Assembly: GCF_000143845.1 (NCBI RefSeq)
Contig: NC_014363.1
Span: 481,186 to 545,185 of the forward strand
Direction: 5' to 3'
DNA: 64,000 nt
Origin: Olsenella uli DSM 7084
GTDB lineage: Bacteria; Actinomycetota; Coriobacteriia; Coriobacteriales; Atopobiaceae
Shown here: piece by piece, positions 22,523 through 38,778 of the stretch
Layout of the letters: each line of letters starts with the position of its first letter
How positions within the stretch are numbered: position 1 is the stretch's first letter
Notes under the pieces: model-generated
Told to the model about the DNA's origin: nothing
Database searches by the model: none
What the model saw: the letters and a program-made list of their open reading frames with translations, nothing else
Position numbers and translations under genes: made by a program

Positions 22523-22529
22523 GAATGCG

Positions 22530-23126: not shown

Positions 23127-23160
23127 CTGCATGCTGGTTTTTCAACAGTTTTAATCGAGC

Positions 23161-23200
23161 CCGCGTCTCGCTCATTCCTGAGAGAGACGCGGTCCGGTTT
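23161..23200 (+). terminator. Terminator of the rloAB operon
   Basis: CCGCGTCTC...GAGACGCGG with an inner CTC/GAG extension and a six-base loop, followed by TCCGGTTTT. Confidence 0.75.
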
Positions 23201-23237
23201 TAACAAAACGGTCTCAACGACTGTTACGTCAATAGGT

Positions 23238-24050
23238 TTACAGAAATATTGAAGGGCATTCATGGAGCACCTTCGCCGCCAGATAAGGGTTGTTGAACTT
23301 GCGGTACATGCTCGGCCCGCGCCTCAACAGCTCCGCCACCAGTCTGTAGGACCACAGAAGCGTCAGTGGGTCACGGAGCAGCAGATTCAACTGATCGAGG
23401 TTCTCGAATTCTAGAGAGAATACGTTGTCGGCATTTGCGTATTCGGCAGGCCTGGCTAATCGTCTCGCTGATTGCCCGTTCAGTGCGACTATGGTGTTGC
23501 CACGAAACCTCCAGCCGGCGCGTTTCATTGGTGCCATGTCGTGCTTTATGCACTCTTCGAGCTTCTCGTCAGGTACGTCCTTGCCGTTGATGAAGCCGCT
23601 TCCGTCCCTGCCGATGACGAGAACCTCAAGGTTCTGGCAGCTGAGTGTTGCCGCCCTCGTCCTCCTCGCCGTCGATGGCAGCGCGGTGACCGTCCACAAA
23701 ATCCCGGCGCCCCCGGGCAGGTCGGTCTTCATGATGTTGCGGAGATCCCATCCGTGTGAGCCAAACCATGCGATTGCGTCGGTCTCTGCGCGGTCGAGCA
23801 CTTCAGGGTTATCGCCGGAGACGTGCGCGAACAGCATCTCGGCGACCTTCGGGCTTCCTTCCATGTGCCGGTACTCGTGTGCGTGCTGCACATAGCGCTT
23901 GCGGACGTCCTCGGATTTGCCGACGCAGCACGTTCCGTCTTCGAACTTGTAAACGTATATGCCGCGGGCATCCACATCGGATATGTCCCCTGCGATCGAG
24001 GACTTCCCGTCGATAGTCAAATGTTTGAAATCCAGTTCCGCAGCATTCAT
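23238..24050 (-). CDS. GIY-YIG-like domain protein
   Basis: 270 residues; AAGGGG precedes ATG 24050. Residues 30-55 read GIYVYKFEDGTCCVGKSEDVRKRYVQH, a GIY-YIG nuclease start (second motif CVGKS instead of YIGKS) with the usual Arg. Downstream DRAETDAIAWFG and LRNIMKTDLPGGAG match the Glu and Asn patches of the family. The C-terminal 120 residues are unknown. It stands alone, convergent with rloAB, in the accessory region, so a defence or mobile-element role is possible. Nuclease activity is inferred. Confidence 0.65.
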   Translation of the reverse strand: MNAAELDFKHLTIDGKSSIAGDISDVDARGIYVYKFEDGTCCVGKSEDVRKRYVQHAHEYRHMEGSPKVAEMLFAHVSGDNPEVLDRAETDAIAWFGSHGWDLRNIMKTDLPGGAGILWTVTALPSTARRTRAATLSCQNLEVLVIGRDGSGFINGKDVPDEKLEECIKHDMAPMKRAGWRFRGNTIVALNGQSARRLARPAEYANADNVFSLEFENLDQLNLLLRDPLTLLWSYRLVAELLRRGPSMYRKFNNPYLAAKVLHECPSIFL

Positions 24051-24525
24051 GCTACTGCCCCTTTCTCGCAAATGTGCGAGCGCGCCCAATCTCTAAACGG
24101 GTGATTGGAATGCAGAAGCGCAGGTCGTTTTTTAAACCGCCGTTTGCCACTGCGTTTGCCACTGTACTTTTGCGACTCTCCAAAAAGCAGGCTTGGCAAC
24201 CTTCCGGCGCAGCCATCTGGCGAGAAGTTCTTTTGAATAGAAGAAGGGACTCAGGAAGGGACTCAGCGTACCCTTTCGAAGCAGCATGGTAGTGCACTGT
24301 CCTCCGCAAGCGGTTCGCGTTTTCGTTTCGGAGGAACGAAGCGGCACGACAGAGCAATGAGGCCAGATTGTAAAGACGAAACCACGCGCAACGGAGGGCA
24401 CCTTTCTCCCAAGGCGTCCATATCGATAGCTTTTGGGCGCCCTGAACAGATCAAAGGGGCATAAGCGGGACAGATGGCATCGAGGGCAGCAAGGAGGCGG
24501 CGGAAGCGCTGGCACGGGGCTGGGG

Positions 24526-24625
24526 CAGACGAGGTTCTCCCTGATCGCGCCCTCGTACAGCCAGATATCCTGAAGCACCATGCCAAACCGCCCGCGCAGC
24601 CCGTATCGGGACATCTTCCCATCGC
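24526..24625 (-). pseudogene. Fragment of an ABC exporter ATPase
   Basis: About 28 residues on the reverse strand, YGLRGRFGMVLQDIWLYEGA followed by IRENLV, match the Q-loop region of ABC exporter nucleotide-binding domains. Nothing before or after fits, so this is a short relic. The rest of 24051-24689 holds no gene I can support. Confidence 0.6.
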
Positions 24626-24689
24626 CCTGTTTTGCTATCCTGACTGGCGTGAAGTCCCTGGTGAGAAAGTAGGGGAGGCTGAGAAAGGC

Positions 24690-25388
24690 ATGGACCGCTA
24701 TCTTGAGGCGACGCCCCTGCTTGACTTCCATGATCGCCGGATTCAGGGTCTTTTGGCGAGACGAGGCTGGCGGACCCTGTCCACGCCCACGTGCATGCGG
24801 GCCATCTACGACTTCGTGCGAGATGAGATCCTCTTTGGCTACAACGAGGATGACAACATCCCTGCTTCGCAGGTGCTTCTCGAGGGCTATGGTCAGTGCA
24901 ACACCAAGGCCACCCTGTGCATGGCCCTGTTCCGGGCCTGTGGCATTCCCTGCAGGATCCATGGCTTCACGATCGACAAGCGCCTGCAAAAGGGCGTGAT
25001 GATGGGCTTGGTTTACCGCAAGGCTCCCGCACACGTCTTGCACAGCTGGGTGGAAGCCTGCCTTGATGGGTGCTGGTACCAACTTGAGGGCCTGATATTG
25101 GACTCGGCCTACCTGCAGAAGCTCCAGGCGCGCTTTTCAGGTCATGGGGGACCGTTCTGCGGCTTCGGCGTCGCCACGGCAGACCTTCAGCATCCCCAGG
25201 TGGATTTCGACCTATGCGACACTTATATCCAGCGAGACGGCATAGACCAGGACTTCGGCCTGTACGACAGCCCGGACGACCTCTACGCCCACCATCGCCA
25301 GGCAATGAGCCCCCTGAAGCGCTGTGCCTACCAGCACCTGGGTCGTCGGCAGATGAACCGCAAGGTACGCCAGATCCGCGAGGGCTAG
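24690..25388 (+). CDS. Transglutaminase-like cysteine protein
   Basis: 232 residues from ATG 24690, preceded by GGGGAGGCTGAGAAAGG. The transglutaminase core is clear: Cys70 in EGYGQCNTKATL, His118 in VLHSWVEACLDG and an acidic residue in the following WYQLEGLILD. No signal peptide, so it acts in the cytosol; such proteins cut or cross-link peptides, but the substrate is unknown. The frame is open upstream to 24474 without homology. A 10-base hairpin (GCCCACCAGC, at about 25454) lies after the gene. Confidence 0.75.
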   Translation: MDRYLEATPLLDFHDRRIQGLLARRGWRTLSTPTCMRAIYDFVRDEILFGYNEDDNIPASQVLLEGYGQCNTKATLCMALFRACGIPCRIHGFTIDKRLQKGVMMGLVYRKAPAHVLHSWVEACLDGCWYQLEGLILDSAYLQKLQARFSGHGGPFCGFGVATADLQHPQVDFDLCDTYIQRDGIDQDFGLYDSPDDLYAHHRQAMSPLKRCAYQHLGRRQMNRKVRQIREG

Positions 25389-25469
25389 GGCAAATCGGGC
25401 AGCCTCTGGAGGACTTGTCGGCATCTTCGGGGCATGTTGCGAATCGTTTCGGTGCCGGATCGCCCACCA

Positions 25470-25680
25470 GCTTATTTGGCTGGTGGGCGCACGCCCGCCG
25501 CTTCTCCTCGGGCGCGACGTCCAAGCCGTACTCGGCGAAGAAGCGCGGCTGGAGCGAGAACCACACGCTCTCCGAGCCCACGAGGACGTCGTTCATGTCG
25601 AAGATGACGGTGCGAACGGTCGTGCCCGGGACCGCAGGCCGATCAGACGGAGCTTTCGAGGGGCTAGTAGTCGTAGGCAT
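25470..25680 (-). pseudogene. HAD-superfamily phosphatase, N-terminal fragment
   Basis: The reverse strand from ATG 25680 reads RTVIFDMNDVLVGSESVWFS then PRFFAEYGLDVAPEEKRRAC. This is the start of a beta-phosphoglucomutase-like HAD protein, but the nucleophile block DxD is changed to DMN and homology ends near 25480. The fragment overlaps the end of the GntR gene. Confidence 0.6.
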
Positions 25681-26443
25681 ATCCTCCACGGTCCCCCCTC
25701 GTGTAGCTGCACGCGTACTCGATCGCCTGGCCGAGCGCGTCGTACGAGACGCACTCCAGAAGCAGCGCCGCCGATCCGGCCGCGACGCCCAGGAGGCCCG
25801 CGTCACGCCCTCCCAGCTCCACGATGTCGAGCTTCTCCTGCGTCTGCGCGACCATATGGCCGAGGTGCCTGTACGTCTCGTACAGGCTGAAGACCTGGAT
25901 GTCCACGTCCTCCACGCCAGGTAGGATGGATAGCGGTACCAGCGTGTTCTCGATGGTCAGCGGCTCGGCGTCCACGCTGTTGAGACGGCGCAGGCTGTAT
26001 AGCAGGTCGTCTGGCCTGATGCCGAAGAGCCACGCATAGTACTCACCCGCGCGACGCTTCCTGCGTGAGAGTACGCGCACCGACGGCTTGCGTCCTAGGA
26101 TGCGGGCCGTCTCGCGGAAGCCGCCTCGTGAGGTGCCCTCCGGATCGAGCAGCCCCGGGGTCACGAAGGTGCCCTTGCCTTGGATGCGACGGACGCGGCC
26201 CTGGTCTACGAGTCCGTCGGTGGCATTACGAATCGTGAGCCGCGTCGTGCCGAACTCGGAGGCGAGGTCGTTCTCGGAGGGCAGCGCGGCACCCACGGCG
26301 TAGGCGCCGCGCTCGATACGCTCGGCGAGCGCACGTCGGACGCGTAGGTACGATGGCATATCTGTGTCGGGAGTCGAGACGGGTGCGTCCCCTTGGCCAC
26401 CCCGGGCGATCGTGGTGCGGGCCCCCGCTATGACCTCAGCCAT
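25664..26443 (-). CDS. GntR/HutC-family regulator (UTRA domain), copy 1
   Basis: 259 residues; GGAGGTG precedes ATG 26443. Winged HTH at 30-95 (YLRVRRALAERIERG, LPSENDLASEFGTTRLTIRN, GKGTFVTP) followed by a UTRA ligand domain (YYAWLFGIRPDDLLYSLRRL, GVAAGSAALLLECVSYD, ACSYTRGDRGGYAYDY). It starts within the end of the second GntR gene (16-base overlap), so both are co-transcribed with the SIS protein gene upstream. It probably senses a phosphorylated sugar intermediate of the locus. Confidence 0.9.
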   Translation of the reverse strand: MAEVIAGARTTIARGGQGDAPVSTPDTDMPSYLRVRRALAERIERGAYAVGAALPSENDLASEFGTTRLTIRNATDGLVDQGRVRRIQGKGTFVTPGLLDPEGTSRGGFRETARILGRKPSVRVLSRRKRRAGEYYAWLFGIRPDDLLYSLRRLNSVDAEPLTIENTLVPLSILPGVEDVDIQVFSLYETYRHLGHMVAQTQEKLDIVELGGRDAGLLGVAAGSAALLLECVSYDALGQAIEYACSYTRGDRGGYAYDY

Positions 26444-27249
26444 GCTGTGTTCACCTCCACATGCACGTCGTCCGTCTCGTCCTCGACGCTTGCGAAGCGG
26501 TAGCGACTTGGGAGAATCACGGACGTGACGTACTCCACCGTGACCCCGTCCTCGGTGCGTGCGAGGCTACGCTCGAAGAAGGCCGGCTCTCCGACGCGCG
26601 CCCCCAACACGTCGGCCTCACCCTCGTTGACCTGCGTGATGCTTACGCGCTGGTAGCCACGGACGGGTATGATGCCGTACTCTTCCTCGAGGACGGCGTA
26701 GAGGCTCTCTCGGCTGAAGTCGTGCCGATCGATGTCCGGGCAGAGCGCAACGTTGACGCGGGCCGTCTCAATGCCCACGGGCTCGTCGTCGGCTGTCCGC
26801 ATCCGGCGCAGGACGAAGGTCGCGGCGCCGGCGGCAATCCCGAGGTGGTTGGCGACGCCTTCGTCGGAGGCCGTGATTCGGGCCTCCAGCACGCGCGAGC
26901 CAGGCCTCATGCCTGCCTCGCGAACCGTGTCGGAGAAGGACCCGGAGCATTGGAAGACGGACTGCGGCTTGCGAGCACAGACGTATGTGCCCGATCCCTG
27001 GCGACTCTCCAGCTCGTGCTGGCTCACGAGTATCGCGATGCCAGCCCGTAGGGCCGTGCGCGAGACGCCTAGCCGACGGCTCAATTCACGCTCGACGGGC
27101 AGACGGTCGCCTGCGCCAAGCTCCTGGCTGTGTATCAGCCACTCGATGCCCTCGACGGCACGGTCCTTGGGCGGTATGGCATACGGGTCTCGCACGTGCG
27201 GGCCTCCCTCCTTGTGGGGCGAGCGTCTCGGGTGCCGTTCCCATGGCAT
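26428..27249 (-). CDS. GntR/HutC-family regulator (UTRA domain), copy 2
   Basis: 273 residues read from ATG 27249 (AAAGG upstream). HTH: GDRLPVERELSRRLGVSRTA, then GSGTYVCARKP; UTRA: VREAGMRPGSRVLEARITAS, HLGIAAGAATFVLRRMRTAD, YVTSVILPSRYRFASVEDE. The two regulators share fold but little sequence. Having two tandem UTRA regulators in one sugar locus suggests that they answer to two different metabolites or act at different operators (see 29201-29368). Confidence 0.88.
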   Translation of the reverse strand: MPWERHPRRSPHKEGGPHVRDPYAIPPKDRAVEGIEWLIHSQELGAGDRLPVERELSRRLGVSRTALRAGIAILVSQHELESRQGSGTYVCARKPQSVFQCSGSFSDTVREAGMRPGSRVLEARITASDEGVANHLGIAAGAATFVLRRMRTADDEPVGIETARVNVALCPDIDRHDFSRESLYAVLEEEYGIIPVRGYQRVSITQVNEGEADVLGARVGEPAFFERSLARTEDGVTVEYVTSVILPSRYRFASVEDETDDVHVEVNTAWLRS

Positions 27250-27378
27250 AGGGGTGCCTTTCGGTGGCGGCGTCCAGGGGTTCGCTTCGCCTTGCGTTAC
27301 CCCAACCTTAGCAACTCTACCCTCCTGCAAGCCACGGGGAAGACGCCCCTCGACGCCTTCCCCGTGGCTTGGGCCTCC

Positions 27379-28524
27379 TCAGAGGTACGGCATGAACCGG
27401 AGGATGTCGTTCGTCTTGGACGGCACGAGGTCCTCGGTCTCGGCCACTAGGGGCAGCTCGTCCCACGACCCCTTCTCCTCTGTCGCCCGGTAGGCGATGA
27501 TCTGGAAGAAGGGCAGCAGGTAGAGCGGTAACAGAAGCGGGTCAGCGGGACGCTCCTCCGGGAGAGGGAAGACGTTGCCGTCCGTACCGGCAGCCCCGTC
27601 CGTCGCGGTGGCGGTGAGCAGGAATGCGTGGTCGGTCACGTGGCGGCAGGCCCGGTACAGGGCCACCATGCGCTCGTGGCCCCGTGCGAGGTCGTCTACC
27701 AGAAAGACGGTGTATGCGGGCGTCATCTGGAGGTTAGGACCATGGTTGAACTCCTCGGCCTCATAGGCGAAGGCCGGGACCTTGACCGTCTCGCCGAGCT
27801 TGAGCGCACCCTCCAGCGCGACGCCCCAGGCCTGGTCGAAGCCGAGCACGTAGCACGGACCCATGCCCAACAAGTCGCGACGGTGTGTCCGGTAGAACTT
27901 GTCTGCGCTGGCCTGCAGGGCGCGATGGGCCTCAGGTACGAGCCTCATCTGAGCGAGGGTCGCGTCCCGTTCCCCGTTCCCCATCCGTCCGGTGGCCACG
28001 GCTGCGTCAAGTGCGAAGAGCATCAGGTACTGCGCGAGCGTCACGACCCCCTTCGTGACGTAGCCCACCTGCTCCTCTCCGCAGCCGAAGTCGAAGACGG
28101 CATCCGCATGGCTGTGCACCTCCGCCTCAGGGTTCGCCGTGAGGGCGAGGGCGGGGGCGCCCGTCCCCCGCAGACGGTCCAACACGGCGAGGGCGTTCGT
28201 CGAGCAACCCGATTGGGTCACGACCAGGTGGAAGGTGCCGCGCACGGGGAAGGTTTCGGAGACGAGGCACGTCCCTGGTGTGGACACCGTCACGCGCGCT
28301 CCCAGCGCCCGTCGCATCAGCGGTGCCGCGCACTCCGCCGCGTTGCGGCTTGACCCGCAGGCCACGAGCACCACGTTTCCGGTTGACGTCCCGTCGGATG
28401 ACTCGGCGACGTAGCGCGCGACGAGCGGGCCGCACAACGTCTCGTGGTTGGTGAGAGCGCACTCGAGAGCCTCGGGAGACTCATGCACGTAGTCGAGCAT
28501 CGTCGGGTGCTTCTCGGTAGTCAT
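27379..28524 (-). CDS. SIS-domain sugar isomerase/deglycase (GfrE/FrlB-like)
   Basis: 381 residues; GGGAGGT precedes ATG 28524. Two SIS domains like the isomerase half of GlmS: VVLVACGSSRNAAECAAPLM and VVTQSGCSTNALAVLDRL in the first, YVLGFDQAWGVALEGALKLG with EAEEFNHGP in the second. In Gfr and Frl pathways such enzymes split 6-phospho-glycated amino acids into sugar phosphate and amino acid. A second SIS protein, at 29401, and a mannose-type PTS support that role. The 28521 gene overlaps its start by ATGA. Exact substrate unknown. Confidence 0.8.
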   Translation of the reverse strand: MTTEKHPTMLDYVHESPEALECALTNHETLCGPLVARYVAESSDGTSTGNVVLVACGSSRNAAECAAPLMRRALGARVTVSTPGTCLVSETFPVRGTFHLVVTQSGCSTNALAVLDRLRGTGAPALALTANPEAEVHSHADAVFDFGCGEEQVGYVTKGVVTLAQYLMLFALDAAVATGRMGNGERDATLAQMRLVPEAHRALQASADKFYRTHRRDLLGMGPCYVLGFDQAWGVALEGALKLGETVKVPAFAYEAEEFNHGPNLQMTPAYTVFLVDDLARGHERMVALYRACRHVTDHAFLLTATATDGAAGTDGNVFPLPEERPADPLLLPLYLLPFFQIIAYRATEEKGSWDELPLVAETEDLVPSKTNDILRFMPYL

Positions 28525-29129
28525 AATCTGGACCTCCCATGCTTCTTCTGGGCGTTCCTCCTGATCGACGAGGCCTTGTCGGCTGAGCTGCCGCCGTCGG
28601 GTGCCGCGCCGTGTTCGGTGCTCCTCTCGCTGACCGCCGTCCGTGCGCTCACGATCATCGCGTCGAAGGTCTCCTTGACGTGGTCGGCGGCGGCTCTGAG
28701 CTCGTGGTACACCGGTGAGGAGCGTCGTGTGGGACGCGTGATGTAGGGCAGCTGAATCGTCACGTCGGCTCCATGCACCGCGATGACGACGCCGAGCGAG
28801 AAGCACCTGTCGCCACGTTTGGACGCGTTCGCCTGCGAGTAGCGCATCGGGTTTGCCACAAGCGAGGCGAGACTACCCTCGCGCTCTATCCGGGTGCGCT
28901 CCGCGGCACCGTCGTCGTCCGCCACGCGGCACGCAAGGACGTCCTCGAAGGAGTAGATGCGCGGTGACGCCCCAGACAGGCGCACCGCCCAGCGGTGATG
29001 CCCTCGGTCGAGGTAGATGCTGGGGGCAGGTACGAGCGCGGGCGGCTCGTAGAGCACCTCATCTACGGTGAAGTTGGTTCCCGCGAAGAAGCGCTGCGGG
29101 TCCTTGCCGCCGAATGCCGCCATAGGCAT
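28521..29129 (-). CDS. Uncharacterised protein of the glycated-compound locus
   Basis: 202 residues; GGAGGGAGGG precedes ATG 29129. Core: PSIYLDRGHHRWAVRLSG, YSFEDVLACRVADDDG, CFSLGVVIAVHGADVTIQLP and an Ala/Ser-rich charged tail. The beta-rich part recalls, from memory, the region found downstream of small zinc ribbons in DUF4428-type proteins, but no zinc ribbon is present. Its stop overlaps the SIS gene start (ATGA), so the two are translated together. Function unknown. Confidence 0.7.
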   Translation of the reverse strand: MPMAAFGGKDPQRFFAGTNFTVDEVLYEPPALVPAPSIYLDRGHHRWAVRLSGASPRIYSFEDVLACRVADDDGAAERTRIEREGSLASLVANPMRYSQANASKRGDRCFSLGVVIAVHGADVTIQLPYITRPTRRSSPVYHELRAAADHVKETFDAMIVSARTAVSERSTEHGAAPDGGSSADKASSIRRNAQKKHGRSRL

Positions 29130-29200
29130 TCCCTCCCTCCTGACGCACGGCGCATGCATGCGCCGTGCGCGTATGTCGTGCGACGAACTAGATAGGTAAG

Positions 29201-29368
29201 AAAAACCTCATACCAATCTGCTCATATTGTGCCATAGAATGACTTGTTGAAATTTAAGACCATTTACCGATGGTGGACTGCCGTTCACCCAGGAAGGATC
29301 CGTTCCCAGGAATTGGTCTGAAAAAGGCATTATCTTATCAAGTCAAGATCACAGATTGGTATGAAAAA
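29201..29368. promoter_or_regulatory. Divergent control region with three GATTGGTATGA-type sites
   Basis: Copies: reverse strand 29201-29218 (GATTGGTATGAGGTTTTT), forward 29311-29325 (AATTGGTCTGAAAAA) and forward 29354-29368 (GATTGGTATGAAAAA). They lie between the leftward SIS/GntR genes and the rightward PTS operon, one near each start. They are probably operators of one of the two GntR regulators; I could not place -35/-10 boxes with confidence. Confidence 0.6.
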
Positions 29369-29400
29369 GACAAAACTTGACTCTGAAGGGAGCATATACG

Positions 29401-30462
29401 ATGGCAGTGACCGAGAATGTGGAGATCATGCACTTCGACCAGGAGGGATACTTGGCCGGTGGTGCTGCGGCAGCGGCCGCCGGTGACGTGATGGAGGGCT
29501 TTGCCGACCGCGTGGCGGCTGAGGGCTACGACGCGATCTTCCTGCTGGGAGTCGGCGGGACCTGGGACGAGTTCATGCAGCTCGAGTACTTCATGAATAA
29601 ATACGGTGACAAGGACCTGGAGTGCTACCTCATCCACGCCGCTGAGTTCAACGTGTCCGGCCATAGGCGCATGACCAACCGATCGGTCGTGCTTACCGCC
29701 TCGGAGTCTGGGACCACCCCCGAGGTGCTCGAGGCCGTGCGCAAGCTCAAGGACATGGGCGTCCGGGTGTTTGCCATGACCAAGCCCGACGGCAAGATCG
29801 GCCAGGCTGTGGGCGCCGAGAACTGCCTCGACATGGCGTCAGACCATGCCGACGGCGGCTGCGAGATGGGCTACTACCTCGCGGACCGCTTTGGCCTCAA
29901 GCTCCTCAACCTGCGCGGCTGCTTCCCCAAGTACCACGAGTTCGTCGAGCAGACTCGTGGCATCTGGCCCGCCTTCCTCGACATTCGCAAGCAGTTCGAG
30001 CCCAAGGCCGAGGCGTTCGCTCGCTCGTACGCACTCGCGCCGTACACGATGTTCATCGGTTCCGGCGCCCTTTGGGGCGAGACGATCCTCTTCGCGATGT
30101 GCATCCTCGAGGAGATGCAGTGGAAGCGCACGCGCTACATCAGCTCGGCGGACTTCTTTCACGGGACTCTGGAGCTCGTCGAGCCGGGCGTGCCCGTCGT
30201 ACTCTTCAAGGGCGAGGACGAGTGCCGCAAGCTCGACGACCGTGTCGAGGCCTTCCTAAAGACCGGTCGCACCGGTGACGCCGACGTCACCGTCATCGAC
30301 ACGGCCGAGTATGCGCTGCCCGGTCTTGACCCGGACTTCCGTCCGCTGCTGAGCCCCTGGATTCTTTCCTCGATCATCACGGACCGTCTCTCGGCTTACT
30401 ACGAGCTCGTCACGAAGCACAACCTCGACTACCGCCGCTACTACCACCAGTTCGACTACTAA
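29401..30462 (+). CDS. SIS-domain deglycase (FrlB/GfrF-like), first gene of PTS operon
   Basis: 353 residues; GAAGGGAG precedes ATG 29401. Two SIS domains with YDAIFLLGVGGTWDEFMQLE, SVVLTASESGTTPEVLEAVR in the first and APYTMFIGSGALWGETILFA, SSADFFHGTLELVEPGVPVV in the second. This resembles fructoselysine-6-phosphate deglycase, which splits the phosphorylated Amadori compound to glucose-6-phosphate and lysine. It heads the operon with an FrlC-like epimerase and four PTS genes. A 9-base hairpin (30473-30505) before the next gene may trim or balance the message. Confidence 0.82.
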   Translation: MAVTENVEIMHFDQEGYLAGGAAAAAAGDVMEGFADRVAAEGYDAIFLLGVGGTWDEFMQLEYFMNKYGDKDLECYLIHAAEFNVSGHRRMTNRSVVLTASESGTTPEVLEAVRKLKDMGVRVFAMTKPDGKIGQAVGAENCLDMASDHADGGCEMGYYLADRFGLKLLNLRGCFPKYHEFVEQTRGIWPAFLDIRKQFEPKAEAFARSYALAPYTMFIGSGALWGETILFAMCILEEMQWKRTRYISSADFFHGTLELVEPGVPVVLFKGEDECRKLDDRVEAFLKTGRTGDADVTVIDTAEYALPGLDPDFRPLLSPWILSSIITDRLSAYYELVTKHNLDYRRYYHQFDY

Positions 30463-30472
30463 CGATGGGTGG

Positions 30473-30505
30473 GAGGGACCGTCTCTCCCAGCGAGGCGGT
30501 CCCTC
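30473..30505 (+). other. Intercistronic hairpin
   Basis: GAGGGACCG, 15-base loop, CGGTCCCTC, without a T-run. It lies between the deglycase and epimerase genes and may stabilise the upstream message or allow partial termination. Confidence 0.5.
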
Positions 30506-30529
30506 TTCCGGCTTTGGGAGGGGGTCCAT

Positions 30530-31384
30530 ATGCCAGCTCGCCTTGCGGCCATGAATTGCTCACATCGCTTCTTTGACCTGGAAGAGTTCTTTGCGAGTGC
30601 TGACGCCGCGGGCTTCGAGGGTGTGGAGCTCTGGACCGGCCCGATGCACTTCTTCATGGATGCACACGGGTACGATCCCGTCTCGCGCCTCGTGGGTCTG
30701 GAGAGGCGCTATGATCTCCCGATCATTGGGGTCTGCCCTGAACAGGCTAACCCCAAGCCGCACAATATCGCCGTGCGCGGTGAGACGGGACGGGCCCGCA
30801 CGCTTGCGTACTTCACAAATGCGCTCGAGGTGGCTCGCGAGCTAGGTGCGAGCCAGGTCGTCGTCACGAGCGGTTGGGGCTACCTTAACGAGCCAGTTGA
30901 GGTCGCCTGGGAGCGCAGCGTGACAATGCTCAGTGCCATAGCGCGGCGCGCCGAGGCGATAGGCGTACCGCTTGCGATTGAGGCGCTCCAACCCGACGAG
31001 TCCAACCTCGCGCATACGGCTGCCGACCTTTTGCGCCTCGTGGCCGAGGTGGACTCGCCCGCCCTCGGTGTCTGCCTTGACCTGGGCGCGATGGCCGTTG
31101 CTGGTGACACGATCGAGGGCTACTTCGCGACCTTCGCCGGCCGCATCATCCACGTGCACTTCGTTGACGTGGGGCACGGTATGACGCACCTCGCCTGGGG
31201 CGACGGCGAGAGGGACATGACCTCCGACCTCGCTGCACTTGCGCGCTGTGGCTACGAGGGGTGGCTCTCGTCCGAGACGGTGGACCCCGAGCGTTTCGCA
31301 GGTCCGGCTGCCGCCGACGCCCAGACTATGGCCGCGTTCCGTACGGCCCAGGAACAGCTTCGAAGGGGGGTGAGGCATCTGTGA
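30530..31384 (+). CDS. FrlC-like sugar-phosphate isomerase/epimerase (TIM barrel)
   Basis: 284 residues; GGGAGGGGG precedes ATG 30530. AP-endonuclease-2 type TIM barrel: AAMNCSHRFFDLEEFFASAD at the start, AGFEGVELWTGP, QVVVTSGWGYL, LAIEALQPDESNL with the metal Glu, LGVCLDLGAMAVAG with Asp, IIHVHFVDVG with His and GWLSSETVDP with the last Glu. FrlC interconverts fructoselysine and psicoselysine, so the locus may accept both epimers. Its stop overlaps the start of the EIIA gene (GTGA). Confidence 0.82.
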   Translation: MPARLAAMNCSHRFFDLEEFFASADAAGFEGVELWTGPMHFFMDAHGYDPVSRLVGLERRYDLPIIGVCPEQANPKPHNIAVRGETGRARTLAYFTNALEVARELGASQVVVTSGWGYLNEPVEVAWERSVTMLSAIARRAEAIGVPLAIEALQPDESNLAHTAADLLRLVAEVDSPALGVCLDLGAMAVAGDTIEGYFATFAGRIIHVHFVDVGHGMTHLAWGDGERDMTSDLAALARCGYEGWLSSETVDPERFAGPAAADAQTMAAFRTAQEQLRRGVRHL

Positions 31385-31803
31385 GACAGATCGTCATCGC
31401 AACCCACACGCACCTCGCGGCGGGACTGGCTGAGGCTGTGACGTTCCTCGCGGGAGAGCACGGCAACGTCCGCGTTCTCAATCTCTTTGTCGACGGCGAG
31501 GACGATGTGGCGGCAGCGGCCCGGCGCGTCATCGACCAGACGCCCTCAGGCGACGACCTCGTCGTCTGTACGGACCTGCTCGGTGGCTCGGTCAACAACG
31601 AGTTCGCCAAGCTCGCTCAGATCGACCCGCGCATCCTGCTTGTTACGAACGCAAACCTGCCTGTCGTTCTACAGCTCGTGCTTGCTGCCGGTGACGAGCC
31701 CACCGTCGAGCTCGTCCGACAGGTTGTGAGCGCCGAGGAGTCGAGGCCCGTCCTCGTGAATGACCTCCTGGTCGCCGAGTCGGACGGTGAGGACGAGTTC
31801 TAG
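31381..31803 (+). CDS. PTS EIIA, mannose family
   Basis: 140 residues with GTG start at 31381 behind GGGGGGTGAG. The N-terminal ATHTHLAAGLAEAV carries the phospho-histidine (His9 by alignment with Man-family IIA), and DLLGGSVNNEF is the family's second conserved block. Soluble dimeric phosphocarrier that receives phosphate from HPr and passes it to the separate EIIB. Overlaps frlC-like gene by four bases. Confidence 0.92.
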   Translation: MRQIVIATHTHLAAGLAEAVTFLAGEHGNVRVLNLFVDGEDDVAAAARRVIDQTPSGDDLVVCTDLLGGSVNNEFAKLAQIDPRILLVTNANLPVVLQLVLAAGDEPTVELVRQVVSAEESRPVLVNDLLVAESDGEDEF

Positions 31804-31875
31804 CGGGACGACGCCGACCTATGCGACACGCACCGCCAGCATGTCACGTACACGCATCCCTGGGGAGGGAGCACA

Positions 31876-32352
31876 ATGATTCTACTCACTCGTGTGGACC
31901 ACCGGCTGCTCCACGGTCAGGTGGCCGTTTCGTGGGTCAACGGTCTCAAGGCCAACTGCGTCTTCGTCGTGGGCGATCACGTCGCCAACGACCCTGTGTG
32001 GAAGACGACGCTCAGGCTGGGCAAGCCTGCTGGTTGCAAGCTCGTGGTCAAGGACATGGCCCGTGCAATCGAGTCGTTGAAGTCGGGCGTCACCGACAAG
32101 TACCGGATGATCATCTGCGTCGGATCGATCGCCGAGGCCAAGCAGCTCGCCGAGGGCTACCAGAAGATCCGCTCGATCAACCTCGGCAACACCAAGGAGA
32201 GCCCCACCACCCGAACGCTCACGAAGCAGGTCTTCGTGGAGCCGGATGAGGAGCAAATGCTGCGCGATATGGCGGCCGACGGCATCGAGCTGGAGTACCG
32301 CGCCCTCGCCGACGATCCCAAAGTCGACGTCGCAAAGCTTCTCGATGAGTAG
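31876..32352 (+). CDS. PTS EIIB, mannose family
   Basis: 158 residues. MILLTRVDHRLLHGQVAVSW contains the phospho-histidine of Man-type IIB (HGQ, His14), and VKDMARAIESLKSG and RSINLGNTKESP are family patches. Phosphorylates the incoming sugar moiety, here probably on the 6-hydroxyl of a glycated amino acid. Start fixed by GGGAGGGAG. Confidence 0.92.
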   Translation: MILLTRVDHRLLHGQVAVSWVNGLKANCVFVVGDHVANDPVWKTTLRLGKPAGCKLVVKDMARAIESLKSGVTDKYRMIICVGSIAEAKQLAEGYQKIRSINLGNTKESPTTRTLTKQVFVEPDEEQMLRDMAADGIELEYRALADDPKVDVAKLLDE

Positions 32353-32448
32353 GGAGTTACGTGTGGGAGGGCATCGCGCAAGCACGATGCGCGACGTCCG
32401 ACTCGTGCGAGGATCGCAGGTCATGCAACACACAGAACGGAGGAGGCA

Positions 32449-33222
32449 ATGCTTGGCACATCTTTGATGCTGGGAATCGTATACTGGACCTTTGCGTACT
32501 TCGATTACCAACTTGGCACGCTCTACGCCTTCAGGCCCATCGTGGTCGCCCCAGTCGTTGGGGCCTTGCTCGGTGACGTCCAGACGGGCCTGGCCATTGG
32601 GGCGAGCTTGGAGCTGCTCTTCATGGGGTCGGTCTCGATTGGCGCCTATGTTCCGCCCGACGCCACGGCGTCAGCCGTCCTCTGCACCGCGTACGTGATC
32701 CTCACCGGTATCGAGCCCGCGGTGGCCGTCGGTCTCGCGATGCCCGTGGGGACGTTGCTCGGTGCCCTCGAGAACCTTCTCCAGCCGCTCCAGAACTGGC
32801 TGCTCGCCTTCATCCCCAAGTTCGCGCGGGAGGGCGCCAGCCGCAAGATTATGGCTCTGCACTGGGCAGTCGGCTTGGTTACTGCCCCAATCTACATTGC
32901 TGCCATCACAGCCTCCGTCTACTTTGGGTCGGACGCCGTCAACTGGCTCGTGGAGGTCATCCCCGCCTTCGTGCTCGACGGCTTTGCCTGCGCGGCAAAC
33001 ATTCTGCCCGTCATGGGCTTCGCGATGCTCGCCCGCATGATCCTGACGAAGCAGCTCGTCCCGTTCTACTTCCTGGGCTTCCTACTCACTGCCTACCTCA
33101 ACGTCCCAGTACTTGGCGTGGCGCTGCTCGCGATCATCATCGCGATCGAGAAGCTCGACCTGTTCAACAACAACCCTGAGCCCGCGCTCGCCGTAGAGGG
33201 GGATGACGACGATGACTTCTGA
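32449..33222 (+). CDS. PTS EIIC, mannose family
   Basis: 257 residues, integral membrane. Family hallmarks: RPIVVAPVVGALLGDVQTGL and GASLELLFMGSVSIGAYVPP near the start, then several hydrophobic helices and an acidic tail (EGDDDDDF). Start ATG 32449 follows GGAGGAGGC. The 3' end overlaps the EIID gene. Confidence 0.92.
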   Translation: MLGTSLMLGIVYWTFAYFDYQLGTLYAFRPIVVAPVVGALLGDVQTGLAIGASLELLFMGSVSIGAYVPPDATASAVLCTAYVILTGIEPAVAVGLAMPVGTLLGALENLLQPLQNWLLAFIPKFAREGASRKIMALHWAVGLVTAPIYIAAITASVYFGSDAVNWLVEVIPAFVLDGFACAANILPVMGFAMLARMILTKQLVPFYFLGFLLTAYLNVPVLGVALLAIIIAIEKLDLFNNNPEPALAVEGDDDDDF

Positions 33223-34042
33223 TCGCAAGAGTGACTTCGGCATCACCAAGAATGACTTGGTCAAGACCTCGCTCAACGTTGGCTCGCTGGGCATGGAGTT
33301 CTCTTGGACCTACGTCAACCAGATGGGCCTCGCCTTCTGCGTGATGATCATGAACTGCCTGAAGAAGATCTGGGGTGAGGGCACCGAGGGATACAAACAG
33401 GCCCTCGAGCGCAACGCGGCCTTCTTCAACATCACGGTGCAGCTCGCGCCCTTCGTCGGCGGGATCACGATTGCGATGGAAGAGGGCGTCGCCAAGGGCA
33501 AGGTCGACCCGAAGGCCATCAATGACGTTAAGGCCGCCCTCATGGGGCCGCTCTCCGGCATCGGCGACTCGATTTTCCTCACGACTCTTCGTGTGATTGC
33601 CGCTGGCGTGGGCATCTCGATGTGTCAGGCCGGCAACCTCGCCGGTCCCCTCGTCTTCCTGCTCATCTACAACATTCCGGCGTTCTGGCTGCGTGTGGTG
33701 GGCATCCGGTACGGCTACGAGATGGGTACGAGCCTGCTCGACCGGGCCGAGAAGTCTGGCATCATGGAGAAGGTCTTGGCCGCTGCGGGTATCGTCGGCA
33801 TCATGGTCATCGGTTCGATGACCAAGGACATGTTCGGGGCTGAGCTTGCAATCGGGTTCGGTGCTGGCGACGACGCCACCACGCTCCAGGCGGTGCTCGA
33901 CGGCATTATGCCCGGTATGGTGGGCCTCGGTTTCATGTGGCTCTACTACTGGCTGCTCGGCAAGAAGATCAGCCCCTCCGTGCTGGTTCTCGGCACGATG
34001 CTCCTGGGCGTCATCCTGGTCTACTTCGGGATTATGGCCTAG
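33212..34042 (+). CDS. PTS EIID, mannose family
   Basis: 276 residues if started at ATG 33212, nine bases after GAGGGGG; ATG 33203 is in frame but touches the ribosome site. SDFGITKNDLVKTSLNVGSL is the typical IID opening, followed by FNITVQLAPFVGGITIAMEE, LMGPLSGIGDSIFLTTLRV and C-terminal membrane helices. With EIIC it forms the transmembrane channel of the complex. Confidence 0.92.
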   Translation: MTSDRKSDFGITKNDLVKTSLNVGSLGMEFSWTYVNQMGLAFCVMIMNCLKKIWGEGTEGYKQALERNAAFFNITVQLAPFVGGITIAMEEGVAKGKVDPKAINDVKAALMGPLSGIGDSIFLTTLRVIAAGVGISMCQAGNLAGPLVFLLIYNIPAFWLRVVGIRYGYEMGTSLLDRAEKSGIMEKVLAAAGIVGIMVIGSMTKDMFGAELAIGFGAGDDATTLQAVLDGIMPGMVGLGFMWLYYWLLGKKISPSVLVLGTMLLGVILVYFGIMA

Positions 34043-34194
34043 CCATGCCGTTCTCGTCCGCGCGCTCGCTGGCGCGCGGACGAACTCGTGGGCACAGGAT
34101 GCCCTCCCAGGGAAGAGGCGGTGCTCCGTGGGCACGTCCGTGGCGTGCCGCCCTCGTCTCTCCAACCCAAAGACATTAGCGAGCGGAGTGAACA

Positions 34195-35397
34195 ATGGAC
34201 AAAAAGAATGGCAGCAGGTTGCCGTGGCTCGTGATCGCGATCATGTCCGCAATCGTTGCGATCATGTGCGCTGTCGGTCAACCTGGGGCAGGCGCCGAGG
34301 ATGACGAGGGCATCTGGGACCTGCACCGGGCCTATGGTGACCTCTACGTCAATCTTGGCGACACGGTGACCTTCGCGGTGGATGTGGTGGACTACGACAC
34401 AGCCGAGGTCATCGGAGACAACGCAACGGAGGTGATCGCCGAGTCCGCAGACGCCGAGGGCGAGGGCGATCAGGCCGCCGAGGGGGAGTCTGAGGCTGAG
34501 CCCCGCGAGCAGTCCGAGGACGGCAAGGGTGACGGTGAGGAGAAGCCCGAGGACGGGGAGATCGACCTCTCGCAGTTCAAGTTCCAGTGGTATTGGTGCC
34601 AGCATAACGACGAGACCGGCGAGATCATGTACGAACCCATTGAGGGCGCGAACGAACCCACGTACACGATTGACCGCGTGAGCGAGGTCGACCTCTACGA
34701 CAACAACGAGCTCGAGTTCGTCTGTGCCCTCTTCCCGGCGGATGCGACGGACCTCTCCTACGGCAACCGCATCAACGTGTCATCCATCTGGTTCTCCCTG
34801 TCGCTGATGCCGGACGACTACGTGCAGACCGGAACCACCCAGCACGTAACCGTCAACCCCGAGGGTCAGGACTCCAAGGGCGGCTACGTGGCCTTCGTGA
34901 CCAACGAGGCCGGGACCTTCGACTTCCAGGTCTCGGGCGTCTCCGACGCCGCTACGTCACCGAGCGTCTACGTCGCCGCCATACAGGGCGACTGCGTGGT
35001 TGCTGAGTACGAGTCCGACAAGACGAGCTTCTCGCTTGCGTGCGACCCGGCCTACACCTACGTGATCAGCTGGTCCGCCGACGCTACGAAGCCCGTGAGC
35101 TTCGACTACACGATCTCCGGCGAGGCGAGCGAGCCCGCGTACGTGGACCTCAACGAGTCGCTCGAGCCGACGGACGAAGGCCTCAACGTCTACGTGGACG
35201 CCGTGACGCTGCGTGAGGACGGCGAGTACCAACTCACCGTCGCGAACCCATGGGTGGACGCCGACTACTCGATTGACAACGAGTCCGTGGCTACCGTCTC
35301 GGATGACGGTAAGATTTGGGCTGTGGGACCCGGTGAGGCCACCATCACGGTCACACAGGGTGACGAGACGGCAGCCGTCGCCGTAAACGTGGGATAA
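34195..35397 (+). CDS. Exported protein with C-terminal Big2-like domain
   Basis: 400 residues. N-terminal signal/anchor: basic MDKKNGSRLPWLVIAIMSAI then hydrophobic VAIMCAVGQPGAGA. A glutamate-rich spacer (residues 80-125) leads to two beta domains and a C-terminal Big2-type Ig repeat (VDADYSIDNESVATVSDDGK ... GEATITVTQGD). There is no LPXTG motif, so it is either released or held by the N-terminal helix. It is 152 bases behind EIID on the same strand with no terminator, so it may be part of the operon, perhaps binding glycated peptides at the surface. Function is inferred only from position. Confidence 0.75.
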   Translation: MDKKNGSRLPWLVIAIMSAIVAIMCAVGQPGAGAEDDEGIWDLHRAYGDLYVNLGDTVTFAVDVVDYDTAEVIGDNATEVIAESADAEGEGDQAAEGESEAEPREQSEDGKGDGEEKPEDGEIDLSQFKFQWYWCQHNDETGEIMYEPIEGANEPTYTIDRVSEVDLYDNNELEFVCALFPADATDLSYGNRINVSSIWFSLSLMPDDYVQTGTTQHVTVNPEGQDSKGGYVAFVTNEAGTFDFQVSGVSDAATSPSVYVAAIQGDCVVAEYESDKTSFSLACDPAYTYVISWSADATKPVSFDYTISGEASEPAYVDLNESLEPTDEGLNVYVDAVTLREDGEYQLTVANPWVDADYSIDNESVATVSDDGKIWAVGPGEATITVTQGDETAAVAVNVG

Positions 35398-35426
35398 CGC
35401 GCGGTTCCCACACCACGAATGGCGAG

Positions 35427-35455
35427 GCGCCTCCGGGAATTGTGTTCCGGGGGCG
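35427..35455 (+). terminator. Strong hairpin after the PTS operon
   Basis: GCGCCTCCGGGAA, short TTGT loop, TTCCGGGGGCGC. No T-run, but the position after the last gene suggests a terminator. Confidence 0.45.
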
Positions 35456-35469
35456 CTGACGGTAGGGGG

Positions 35470-35569
35470 CGTTCTCCTCGACCGTCCGGGCGGTCTCCCT
35501 CGTGGCGATCGCATAGGCGTTGTCGGTCGTGAACACCTGGTGCGATTCTATGCGCTTCTTAAATTTCAT
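35470..35569 (-). pseudogene. AbiEi-like antitoxin, N-terminal fragment
   Basis: From ATG 35569 the reverse strand reads MKFKKRIESHQVFTTDNAYA, matching the first 20 residues of the antitoxin at 18595-19350 at 14 positions, and homology ends after about 33 codons. The promoter present at the intact copy is not preserved. Confidence 0.7.
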
Positions 35570-36138
35570 ACAGATAGAGAGCCGCTCCGCTGCGAACGTG
35601 ATGCTGCCAGCATCGGTCACCGGACGCGACGCCTGTCTCGGTGAGTACGTCCCGGCTAACCGAGTGCCTGGCCGCCAGCGCGTCGAAGGACTTGTCGCGT
35701 CGGCTCTCTGCCACCTTCCTCAGAGACTCCAAATGTCATTTGGCCGTCACACCGACCGTCAAAGCAATTATCGATCAAGTGAAAAAGCGGCAAAATCGAG
35801 ACGCAGCCCTTTCTCGGAGATGCAGCGGGGATGGGTTGAGCGCGCGGTAGGATGTTCCCCACCAAGTATTAGGAAGGCACGAGCAACAGCCAATCGCCCG
35901 CGACGATCCTGAGCTCTTCTCTACCGAACGGGAGAATCAGTGCTTCGATCGAAAGAGCTCCCGCAAGGACGAGAAGGAAGCTGCCAGTTTGGCGGCATCA
36001 CCTTTCAGCTATGGCAGGGAAAAGTTTCACGAATGGCAAAGGCATGCCGACCAGCTAGCCCTACCGTTGCGGTTGCAGTTACCAACTGACGATCGCATAG
36101 GAGGCCGGAAGGATGATCGGCATGCCAATGATAAGAAT
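35570..36138. other. No gene recognised
   Basis: Several short frames are open but none has family-like sequence or a ribosome site. The stretch lies between two relics and is probably rearranged debris. Confidence 0.5.
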
Positions 36139-36365
36139 ATAAGGGAGATGTCCCGCAAGTGGCTGTCCAACGCGGAAATCCATCGCGGGACGGGGATCTC
36201 GCAGCCGACGACTCGCAAGCATATCGCGATGGACGACTTCTCGTCCCAGGTGTCCAGGGCCCAAGGGCACCCCTCGGTGCTCGACCTGTACAAGCCCTTT
36301 GTCGACAGTATTCTGATGGAGGACCGGCGCGCCCACGCGCATCGTCGACAGGAAAGCCTACATAT
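36139..36365 (+). pseudogene. IS21-family istA, N-terminal fragment
   Basis: The frame gives IREMSRKWLSNAEIHRGTGI (HTH), RKHIAMDDFSSQVSRAQGHP and SVLDLYKPFVDSILMEDRRA, a typical IstA N-terminus, and stops matching at about 36365 where the surface-protein gene end begins. It is a different subgroup from the element at 14561-17075. Confidence 0.65.
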
Positions 36366-36383
36366 CAGACGCGGCCCCGCCCC

Positions 36384-38749
36384 CTACGCCCGCCTCCTCG
36401 AGAGCGCCAGCGCGGCCGCGGCGCCGATCAGGCAGACCCCCGCGGCCGTCGCCGCCAGGGCGCCCCGGCCCCCGGCCCTGGGCATGGAGACGTTCGGGTA
36501 GTTGGGCAGCGCGAGGGCGCCGGCGCCGGGCCCGGGCCTGAACGCCGGCGGCATGTCGCCGGCGGGCGAGGCGTGGGCGGTGATCCTGACCCTCGGGTCG
36601 GCCCTGGGGTCGACCTCCACGAGCCACTGCCCGTAGGGGGCCGCGAGCCCCGCGGGCGCCTCGGTCTCGGCGAGCATCCAGGCGCCCGCCGGCAGCTCCC
36701 CGAAGTCCACGGTCCCGTCGGGGCCCGAGACGGCGCGCCTGAAGGGCGACGAGACCACCCAGCAGCCCGCGGCCTCCGAGGCGGCCGAGGCCAGCGGCCA
36801 CAGGGAGTGGTCGCAGCCCGCCGGGCAGGCGTAGAGCTCGAAGGCGGCGCCGGCCAGCGGCGCGCCGTCCCTGTCGACCTTCACGAAGGAGAAGGGGGCC
36901 TGGGAGGCGCGTCCTCGAAGGAGAGCTCCACGACGGCGCCGGCGGCGGCGAAGGCGTCGCCCGCCACCGTCTGGTCGGGGGCGGCCTCGTATCCCGCCGG
37001 GACCCGGGTCTCGGAGACCGTGTAGGCGTCGGAGGCCCTGCCGTAGGGGACGTTGGCGATGGTGTAGGTGCCGTCGCCGTTGTCGGCGGACGTCAGCGAG
37101 AAGGCGCCGTGGACGCTGGAGGTTCCCGAGCACGTGAACTCGGCGCCCGCCAGGGGCTCGCCCGTCGACGCGTCGGCCTTCTTGATGGTGACGGTGCCGG
37201 TGACAGGGGTGTAGTACGCTTCTACGAACCCATCGGCGTTTAGACTGTTTATGTAGAAGGAGTTGTTTGAGGAATTGAACGTGCTGTTTATCGTCGCGCC
37301 ATTGTAGGTGACATCGGAACGGTAGAACCCCTCCGATGGGACCGCGTTCAACGGAACCGCTTTCCCGTTCCCTGCATACCTCGTCAGATACCCGGTGGAT
37401 GCCGCCGCTCCCACAGACCAGCTCAACCACGCTTGATCTGCGTAGTCGTGGATCTGGATGCCGCCACCTGTCGAACCGAGCACCCATCCGGAAAGGGTGC
37501 CGTTGTTGTAGGCCCTGTAATACGGCGCTGCTTTGATCGCAACGGCCTTCGTTATCAACCCGCCCCCGTGAGCGCCGGAGGCGCGGAACCTCTCTATGAC
37601 ATGGGAGCCCGCCAGCATGGAGAAGCAGTTTGCGGCGGCGCCGTACTGGGCGGTCGTCGCCGGGGAGTTTTGGGAGGCCCGTATCCACAGTCCGTTCGCG
37701 TCGGGCGTCGCGCTTGACCCCGCTATGTCCACGGCGACCCCCGACGTCCGGGGGATGTATGCCTTAGACTGCGCTCCGTAATCTATGACGAAGCCCTCGC
37801 AATAGGCACCCGCAAATGTGGACGTTGCGTAGGACACCGCGTCGGGGCCGTCGATCTCGTTCTGCTGCCAGATTAACTTGGATCCTACATGCTCGGTGCC
37901 GTCCTTATTCAAGACCTGCATATCGACTTTCGTTTGAATCCCTATTCCGGAATTCATCGGCCTCCCGGTGCCGTTCCAGGCGAACAGGCAGGGGGCGTGT
38001 CCGTTCCAGACAAACGTCTGCGTGGGATAGCTGCTTACCAGCGCGTCATTTATCACGAAGTCTTCGATCGTCAGCTGGATTCTCACATCTCCGTGCGACC
38101 CGTCTGAAAACTCTGCGGCATCGTAGAAGAGCAGGGTAGCCGTCGCGTTCGGCGAGGCGTTCTGGGTGATCGGCGCCGTCCAGCAAATTGCATGCACCGT
38201 GTCTCCCTGGCCTGTGATATCGGAGGTTGAAAGAACCAGGTTTGGATTTGAAGACGCGAAGGAATACGTGCTGCCGCTCGGTCCATGCGTTGCCGTGTTT
38301 ATCTTGCCCGGATCGATCCTCGCATCGGTGAACGCGAAAGACGACATGTAATCGTCGTGGTTCCCTGCCACCACGACCTTGCTCCCGCCATTGTTTATCG
38401 TCGCGTCGGTCACCCTGATCTCGACCACGTCGCCGTCCGGGAACGTGCAGGAGAGCCTCTCCTCGGTGGAGAAGGGCGCGAGCGACGCCAGCCTCCAGTC
38501 GTCCCCCTCCCGCCCCACGGAAAGGAGGGCCGGGTCGCTGAACTCGCAGGAGACGACGTCGGAGGCCTCGCGGCCCACCGACAGGCGGGAGAAGACCTCG
38601 GAGAGCAGGACCGAGGACTCGCCGGCGATGGAGAACGTCCCTCCGTCGAAGCGGAAGTCCACCGTCCAGGTCACCGCGCAGGTCGGGAAGGCCTTGCGGG
38701 GAGAGACGAGGCGTTCCGCATGACAGTCCGTCGATAGCCTTTTCAGCAA
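36384..38749 (-). pseudogene. SpaA/Cna-B-type surface adhesin, frameshifted and without signal peptide
   Basis: Upstream frame (from 38749): AVTWTVDFRFDGGTFSIAGE, LLSEVFSRLSVGREASDVVS, a long beta domain, then a SpaA repeat (GTVTIKKADASTGEPLAGAE ... YTVSETRVPAGYEAAP). Near 36905 one base is gained or lost; the next frame continues APFSFVKVDRDGAPLAGAAF ... LAETEAPAGLA, the sorting region VSMPRAGGRG, a hydrophobic helix and SRRRA. The N-terminus lacks an export signal and the anchor motif deviates from LPXTG. With the frameshift no wall-anchored product is expected. Relatives are large pilin-like proteins of Coriobacteriia. Confidence 0.75.
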
Positions 38750-38766
38750 TACTATTATGTTTCCGT

Positions 38767-38778
38767 TATACTATTGGC
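38767..38778 (+). promoter_or_regulatory. -10 box of a leaderless antitoxin message
   Basis: TATACT at 38767-38772 ends six bases before ATG 38779; no ribosome site lies upstream. The same layout is seen at the AbiEi gene starting at 19350. The -35 region is poor. Confidence 0.5.

Follow-up and report, generated by a model that had tools for sequence, protein, structure and literature searches.

Amadori compounds, which arise in heated food and in ageing protein, serve as a carbon and nitrogen source for some microbes only. In Salmonella and its enterobacterial relatives, the Gfr system (gfrABCDEF) unites in one locus a mannose-family phosphotransferase system (PTS) with subunits A–D, a GfrF-type deglycase, and a second enzyme with a SIS domain. 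The text of one paper assigns glucoselysine-6-phosphate to gfrE and fructoselysine-6-phosphate to gfrF (one figure legend has them the other way round), and the same paper reports that a gfrF mutant retained residual growth on fructoselysine (PMC12675984). A seven-gene Gfr-like operon of Faecalibacterium prausnitzii is described as lacking gfrE while having gfrF, the PTS genes, other regulators, and one extra gene without a homologue in Salmonella gfr (PMC12136445). The Frl system of Escherichia coli (frlABCDR) comprises a SIS deglycase, the epimerase FrlC, and a GntR/UTRA-type regulator together with the permease FrlA and the kinase FrlD. E. coli FrlC acts on the free, unphosphorylated compound. 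Here, we analyze a locus that shares features with all of these systems, situated in a stretch of 64,000 nucleotides (the window) from Olsenella uli DSM 7084, a species whose type strain was isolated from human gingival crevices (PMC3035265).

The gene set of this locus is likely devoted to Amadori compounds. A first-pass annotation had proposed a Gfr/Frl-like system, and the proposal agrees with the sequence relationships, by which one operon encodes an FrlC-like epimerase together with a deglycase of the GfrF type. On balance, we favor a more specific reading, in which the locus would represent a branch of the Gfr kind that takes up fructoselysine-class Amadori compounds through a PTS and epimerizes them as 6-phosphates. 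EIIABCD would import the compound and phosphorylate it at C6, as is usual for the family. The FrlC-like enzyme would convert a 3-epimer, probably psicoselysine-6-phosphate, to fructoselysine-6-phosphate, as pathway logic and clade-specific basic residues suggest, and would thus use a phosphorylated compound, in contrast to what is known of E. coli FrlC. SIS2, judged by its relationship to GfrF and its conserved Glu/His, would release glucose-6-phosphate and lysine from fructoselysine-6-phosphate. As a second deglycase, SIS1 may act on a related 6-phospho conjugate, perhaps of the glucoselysine/Heyns type, although it is not an established GfrE. The GntR/UTRA pair would control both transcription units through the ATTGGTATNAAAA sites at 29208-29372.

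All genes named in the first-pass annotation (PTS A–D, two SIS genes, an FrlC-like gene, two GntR/UTRA genes) were recovered with Pfam, or with NCBIfam and the PDB in the case of SIS2, and two genes that it had passed over, for a 200-residue PH-like protein and a Big_2 Ig-like protein, lie in the same span. They form two divergent units facing each other across 29124-29400. Leftward, the order is PH-like protein, SIS1, GntR/UTRA 2, GntR/UTRA 1; rightward, it is SIS2, FrlC-like, EIIA, EIIB, EIIC, EIID, Big_2 Ig-like protein. The open reading frames (ORFs) of the two regulators overlap by 16 bp, and overlaps of 4 bp join the PH-like gene to the SIS1 start and frlC to the EIIA gene. Relatives carry these genes in conserved synteny, so that the set goes beyond chance. 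Any PTS needs HPr and Enzyme I; elsewhere in the genome, a single one of 2,051,896 bases, HPr and the Enzyme I/PEP-utilising family both have matches.

Compared with Gfr, the window has a GntR/UTRA pair instead of a sigma-54-type activator: no match to PF00158 was found in the window (five weak matches lie elsewhere in the genome), nor is there an ORF of about 900 residues in 22000-39000. Further differences are the divergent gene order, the added FrlC epimerase, the PH-like protein, and the placement of IIC, IID, and SIS1 in sister branches. The operon of F. prausnitzii, as far as it is described, resembles the locus in its PTS genes, in gfrF without gfrE, and in its different regulators, whereas the second SIS gene is found in the window only. 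The deglycase, the epimerase, and the type of regulator are shared with E. coli Frl, whose frlR matches our regulator model. Unlike Frl, the locus encodes a PTS, and neither a FrlA permease nor a FrlD kinase is present among the 10 locus genes scanned with Pfam.

Evidence for the reading comes from SIS2, the FrlC-like protein, the PTS, and the operator described below. The Pfam SIS score of SIS2 is 23.0 bits, under the cut-off of 25, and NCBIfam and PDB matches put the protein with fructosamine-6-phosphate deglycases. Its closest PDB match (E = 4.6e-72) is 2a3n, which we take to be Salmonella STM4540/GfrF. That protein is 90% identical to the product of the final gene of a Citrobacter youngae operon with the gfr order (921-residue ORF, EIIA, B, C, D, SIS, SIS); a Klebsiella plasmid also carries an operon of this order, and its first gene has the annotation of a sigma-54-dependent regulator. 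In a tree from which FraB is absent, SIS2 clusters with the enterobacterial GfrFs (support 0.92); outside this group are E. coli FrlB as well as the GfrF-like protein encoded in an Enterococcus faecium sigma-54-type operon. The identity of SIS2 is 38% to Klebsiella GfrF and 26% to E. coli FrlB. An alignment of 13 proteins, FrlB of E. coli and Bacillus subtilis among them, shows the His of FFHG and the second Glu of LEE conserved throughout. By sequence alone, SIS2 is a predicted GfrF-type fructoselysine-6-phosphate deglycase with the catalytic Glu/His pair.

The first-pass annotation had counted two SIS deglycases and had pointed to known Gfr systems, which have two for glucoselysine and fructoselysine. 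Both SIS genes are present and SIS2 fits, but the glucoselysine part is weak. SIS1 aligns over its full length with GfrE-type proteins and conserves Glu245/His261, as would be expected if it were a functional GfrE and the locus a complete system for glucoselysine and fructoselysine. We consider this unlikely, since the protein is 25–29% identical to three proteins of the GfrE side as opposed to 34–47% to five of its own side, and a tree with AgaS as outgroup separates a GfrE-type clade (0.995) from the SIS1 clade (0.967), the root order of the two being unsupported (0.16). Members of the SIS1 clade come from other Coriobacteriia, an E. faecium plasmid, Erysipelotrichaceae, Lachnospiraceae, and Lactobacillus; the NCBIfam scores of SIS1 are GlmS-like and weakly AgaS-like. 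SIS1 is thus not recovered as a GfrE orthologue, and the complete Gfr system was set aside on the basis of the SIS1 trees. Because the SIS1 clade stands beside GfrE, the use of glucoselysine is unproven.

Less probable still is that the same machinery serves α-linked Amadori compounds (fructose-asparagine, fructose-valine, glycated peptides) instead of fructoselysine. One deglycase fold serves different amino acids, and the identity between SIS2 and Klebsiella GfrF leaves room for another substrate. Nevertheless, SIS2 groups with GfrF and not with E. coli FrlB, and orthologues with 75–78% identity occur in Collinsella intestinalis DSM 13280. In a paper citing Wolf et al. 2019, C. intestinalis is stated to be increased by processed whey protein or fructoselysine, and in another paper citing the same work, dietary advanced glycation end products are stated to be degradable by it.

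To the first-pass annotation, the FrlC-like gene had suggested that fructose- and psicose-type epimers are used as well. The epimerase does stand in the operon, but the phosphorylated arrival of a PTS substrate had been overlooked: with a 6-phosphate supplied by the PTS and no kinase gene among those scanned, FrlC should act on the 6-phosphate. In the tree, the PTS-linked FrlCs form one clade. K76 and R228 are invariant in 27 of 27 of them (L130 was moved to this group because its contig ends in PTS genes), and neither is found in any of the 18 non-PTS FrlCs, the type to which E. coli FrlC belongs (31% identity to the window FrlC over 250 residues). This pattern suggests epimerization of a 6-phosphate, which the two residues would, we infer, serve. 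Residues E151, D184, H210, and E249, presumably the metal ligands, are conserved in the window FrlC, and its model, with a predicted local distance difference test score (pLDDT) of 87 and a predicted template modeling score (pTM) of 0.88, has the ketose 3-epimerase fold, i.e., a TIM barrel with a predicted Glu/Asp/His/Glu metal site. In the literature searched on psicoselysine-6-phosphate and fructoselysine epimerase, the 6-phosphate term was not found.

It is improbable that FrlC instead acts, like its E. coli counterpart, on free psicoselysine brought in by a different permease, and that it is encoded in the PTS operon for regulatory convenience only. E. coli frlC does sit in a permease/kinase operon, and a second, Frl-like locus is present in the O. 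uli genome at about 1.62 Mb (L066, G000:C1:1616001-1634000, ~3.0-10.5 kb), with genes for a PfkB kinase, an amino-acid permease, an FrlB-like SIS protein (33% identity to SIS2), an FrlC-like protein, and a short-chain-dehydrogenase-like protein. However, that locus has its own FrlC-like gene, whose product carries Tyr at the K76 position, while the window FrlC belongs to the PTS-linked clade with its own invariant residues. Moreover, with no kinase among the 10 genes scanned, one from elsewhere would be required before SIS2 could act.

As for the PTS itself, the identities to Klebsiella Gfr are 31% (A), 43% (B), 39% (C), and 41% (D), and every subunit scores higher against Klebsiella Gfr than against E. 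coli ManXYZ, AgaB, AgaV, AgaC, and AgaD (for EIIA, the E. coli side was ManX only). An amino-sugar PTS of the Aga/Man type with SIS isomerase/deaminase enzymes would agree with the top NCBIfam matches (AgaF for IIA and AgaW for IIC, both under the cut-off) and with the GlmS-like and weak AgaS-like scores of SIS1, but it was set aside after this comparison and is very unlikely, given the higher Gfr scores, the deglycase clade of SIS2, and no deacetylase among the 10 genes scanned. EIIC and EIID trees place the window in a branch sister to the GfrCD branch. When EIIDs were typed by the better score to one reference per branch, frlC was found within 6.5 kb of EIID outside Coriobacteriia in 9 of 12 cases of the window's branch and in 0 of 39 (36 loci) of the Gfr branch (Fisher 7e-8; the tips are not independent, many of the 39 being close enterobacterial relatives).

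Several observations weigh against a PTS-fed pathway with 6-phosphate epimerization. SIS2 scores 79 bits with the FrlB equivalog NF008481 (cut-off 430), FrlC scores 134 bits with NF007360, the FrlC equivalog and its best family (cut-off 305), and no PTS subunit of the locus attains an NCBIfam cut-off; the assignment of the exact substrate is therefore tentative. IIC and IID do not fall inside the GfrCD branch. Within Coriobacteriia, frlC is near EIID in just 20 of 37 cases of the window's branch and in 3 of 10 of the Gfr branch. The C. intestinalis stretches examined yielded no frlC, which limits the phenotype link to SIS2 and the PTS. Since the PTS-linked FrlCs are monophyletic, K76/R228 amount to one evolutionary event, and residues 74-78 of the model have a pLDDT below 50, which leaves the position of K76 relative to a phosphate poorly predicted. 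Nor does the modeled fold separate phosphate from non-phosphate epimerases: ketose 3-epimerases without phosphate substrates match it with Z up to 29, and UlaE, named L-xylulose-5-phosphate 3-epimerase and of the same fold, with Z 27.6 (its alignment, at 22% identity, yielded nothing usable on shared phosphate-binding residues). A DeoC-type aldolase, superfluous for a plain Amadori pathway, is encoded beside the PTS in several Firmicutes relatives; aldolase genes of this type near the PTS/SIS2 genes were seen in L116, L119, L122, L124, and L148 and also in L043 and L051. Finally, the operator described below is not enriched in the 15 Firmicutes loci with a regulator pair (1 site versus 0.74 expected).

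The locus is neither a complete textbook Gfr system nor, as the first-pass annotation had supposed, rare in Coriobacteriia. Among 396 Coriobacteriia genomes, the window's own included, SIS2 has a match at E ≤ 1e-20 in 100 and at ≥65% identity in at least 44, six of these as fragments only; C. intestinalis DSM 13280 (NZ_GG692710.1) and C. aerofaciens TSDC17.2 (NZ_OY725717.1) are among the carriers. Our comparison set held 40 stretches, of which 38 (35 genomes) are from outside the window's genome; these 38 were picked by SIS2 match, a few at just 32–53% identity, and several come from close relatives. Their gene content is a mosaic: EIIC and EIID are present in 38 each, EIIB in 36, EIIA in 34, gntR2 in 35, gntR1 in 34, the PH-like gene in 29, frlC in 19, SIS1 in 18, an MFS transporter in 16, and the Ig-like gene in 2. 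Both SIS genes, frlC, PTS, and both regulators occur together in eight, and SIS1 and frlC, found jointly in 8 stretches, are not associated (Fisher 0.75). Outside Coriobacteriia, this same combination is found in Erysipelotrichaceae bacterium MTC7 (L116), and SIS2, frlC, PTS, and the regulator pair in Longicatena (L122), Breznakia (L119), and a Lachnospiraceae bacterium (L124). Related gene sets are also plasmid-borne, as in E. faecium pC10-7-1 (L079), typed conjugative, with a PTS, SIS genes of both the SIS2 and the SIS1 kind, and an HAD gene.

The loci of C. aerofaciens (NZ_OY725717) and C. intestinalis DSM 13280 share SIS2 (74–78%), the PTS, the GntR pair, the PH-like protein, and the operator with the window. 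Unlike in the window, their genes run in one direction. SIS2 is present twice in C. aerofaciens, whose locus also includes an MFS transporter gene, and C. intestinalis differs by the lack of frlC noted above for the stretches examined. The Collinsella-type loci L041, L044, L046, L070, L077, and L078 carry SIS2 twice, as similar genes separated by a few kb, and such gene doubling is perhaps why SIS2 is present as fragments only in some other assemblies.

Both UTRA regulators named at the outset are present, yet they are a conserved adjacent pair rather than an extra: the two genes adjoin on one strand in 31 of the 38 coriobacterial stretches, and 29 of these pairs overlap when the longest ORFs are taken; 15 of 82 other loci have such an adjacent pair as well. 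ATTGGT[A/C]TGA is common to three sites in the promoter region between the window's divergent units. When 179 upstream stretches from the 38 loci were scanned with a matrix made from these three sites alone, 68 sites were obtained, with at least one site in 29 loci, against a mean of 2.2 and a maximum of 15 for 200 column-permuted matrices. After removal of similar stretches, 44 sites remained in 130 stretches versus 1.8. The rest of the sequence holds 37 sites; under an even spread, 4.4 would be expected upstream, as opposed to the 68 found. In some relatives, the arms of an inverted repeat are visible, e.g., ATTGGTA...TACCAAT in L055. The operator sites are established by this conservation, and we infer that the regulators bind them.

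The PH-like protein genuinely belongs to the locus. Its family occurs as one copy each in 46 of the 396 genomes, 42 of which are among the at least 44 with SIS2 at ≥65% identity, and in 38 it lies on the same contig, at most 4.7 kb from SIS2. Among the matches listed, G130, G148, G164, and G165 have the protein without SIS2 at that level, and G154 and G306 have SIS2 without it; no homologue was found in the non-coriobacterial loci examined. The family has no significant Pfam match (best E 0.037, in one member), and its profile gave just two matches among PDB sequences, at E 0.24 and 0.29. With the predicted model (pLDDT 87), Foldseek gave no match at E ≤ 0.001. The PH reading thus comes from a second structural comparison, in which the neighbors were by title mostly of PH/PTB/FERM type (best 3hsa, Z 9.6, root mean square deviation 2.5 over 101 residues). 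One might guess that it works with the regulators or the PTS, in signaling or as a scaffold.

Beyond GntR/UTRA 1 lies a 45-residue remnant of an HAD gene (best tblastn E 4e-8). In 16 of the 38 stretches, SIS2 has a gene of the same type no more than 8 kb away, and copies near the locus in relatives are open. At the other end, the Big_2 Ig-like protein, in view of its scarcity, probably stands outside the pathway. The MFS genes counted above (L041, L046, L070, and others) and EamA genes, seen in 6 of the 38, may serve export of the released amino acid.

Table 1. Features of the Olsenella uli locus, with positions given in the window.
Feature	Position	Strand	Basis or remark
HAD gene remnant (beta-phosphoglucomutase/hexitol-phosphatase type)	25480..25620	-	tblastn with HAD proteins of relatives
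GntR/UTRA regulator 1	25664..26443	-	PF00392 + PF07702
GntR/UTRA regulator 2 (start uncertain)	26428..27330	-	PF00392 + PF07702
SIS1, SIS-domain protein of clade beside GfrE	27379..28524	-	PF01380, alignment, tree
PH-like protein, 200 aa	28521..29123	-	Family search, predicted structure; no significant Pfam match
Operator-like site CAGATTGGTATGA	29208..29220	-	5' of PH-like/SIS1 unit
Operator-like site ATTGGTCTGAAAAAGGCA	29312..29329	+	Motif comparison
Operator-like site AGATTGGTATGAAAAAGACA	29353..29372	+	5' of SIS2
SIS2, GfrF-type fructosamine-6-phosphate deglycase (predicted)	29401..30462	+	PDB match, alignments, tree
FrlC-like ketose 3-epimerase, PTS-linked clade	30530..31384	+	NF007360, AP_endonuc_2, tree, residues, model
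PTS EIIA, mannose family	31381..31803	+	PF03610; GTG start assigned in this analysis
PTS EIIB	31876..32352	+	PF03830
PTS EIIC	32449..33222	+	PF03609, tree
PTS EIID	33203..34042	+	PF03613, tree
Big_2 Ig-like protein, probably secreted or anchored	34195..35397	+	PF02368

What is new here is a PTS branch sister to GfrCD with its link to frlC, the K76/R228 signature, the conserved operator, and the PH-like family. It is quite possible, if short of probable, that these belong to a widespread Gfr-like branch in which a mannose-family PTS is coupled to a dedicated FrlC for 6-phospho-Amadori compounds, with K76 and R228 as phosphate ligands, and to which, in Coriobacteriia, a GntR/UTRA pair acting as one unit and the PH-like protein would be added. 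The most testable new claim is the predicted epimerase for phosphorylated Amadori compounds. The findings also counsel caution in labeling such loci complete glucoselysine/fructoselysine systems. If the proposed pathway is true, uptake by a PTS can be coupled to epimerization after phosphorylation, and a residue signature would tell two FrlC types apart in genome data. The use of Amadori compounds would gain an associated regulon motif and a protein family as yet unnamed, and the trait would reach an oral species.

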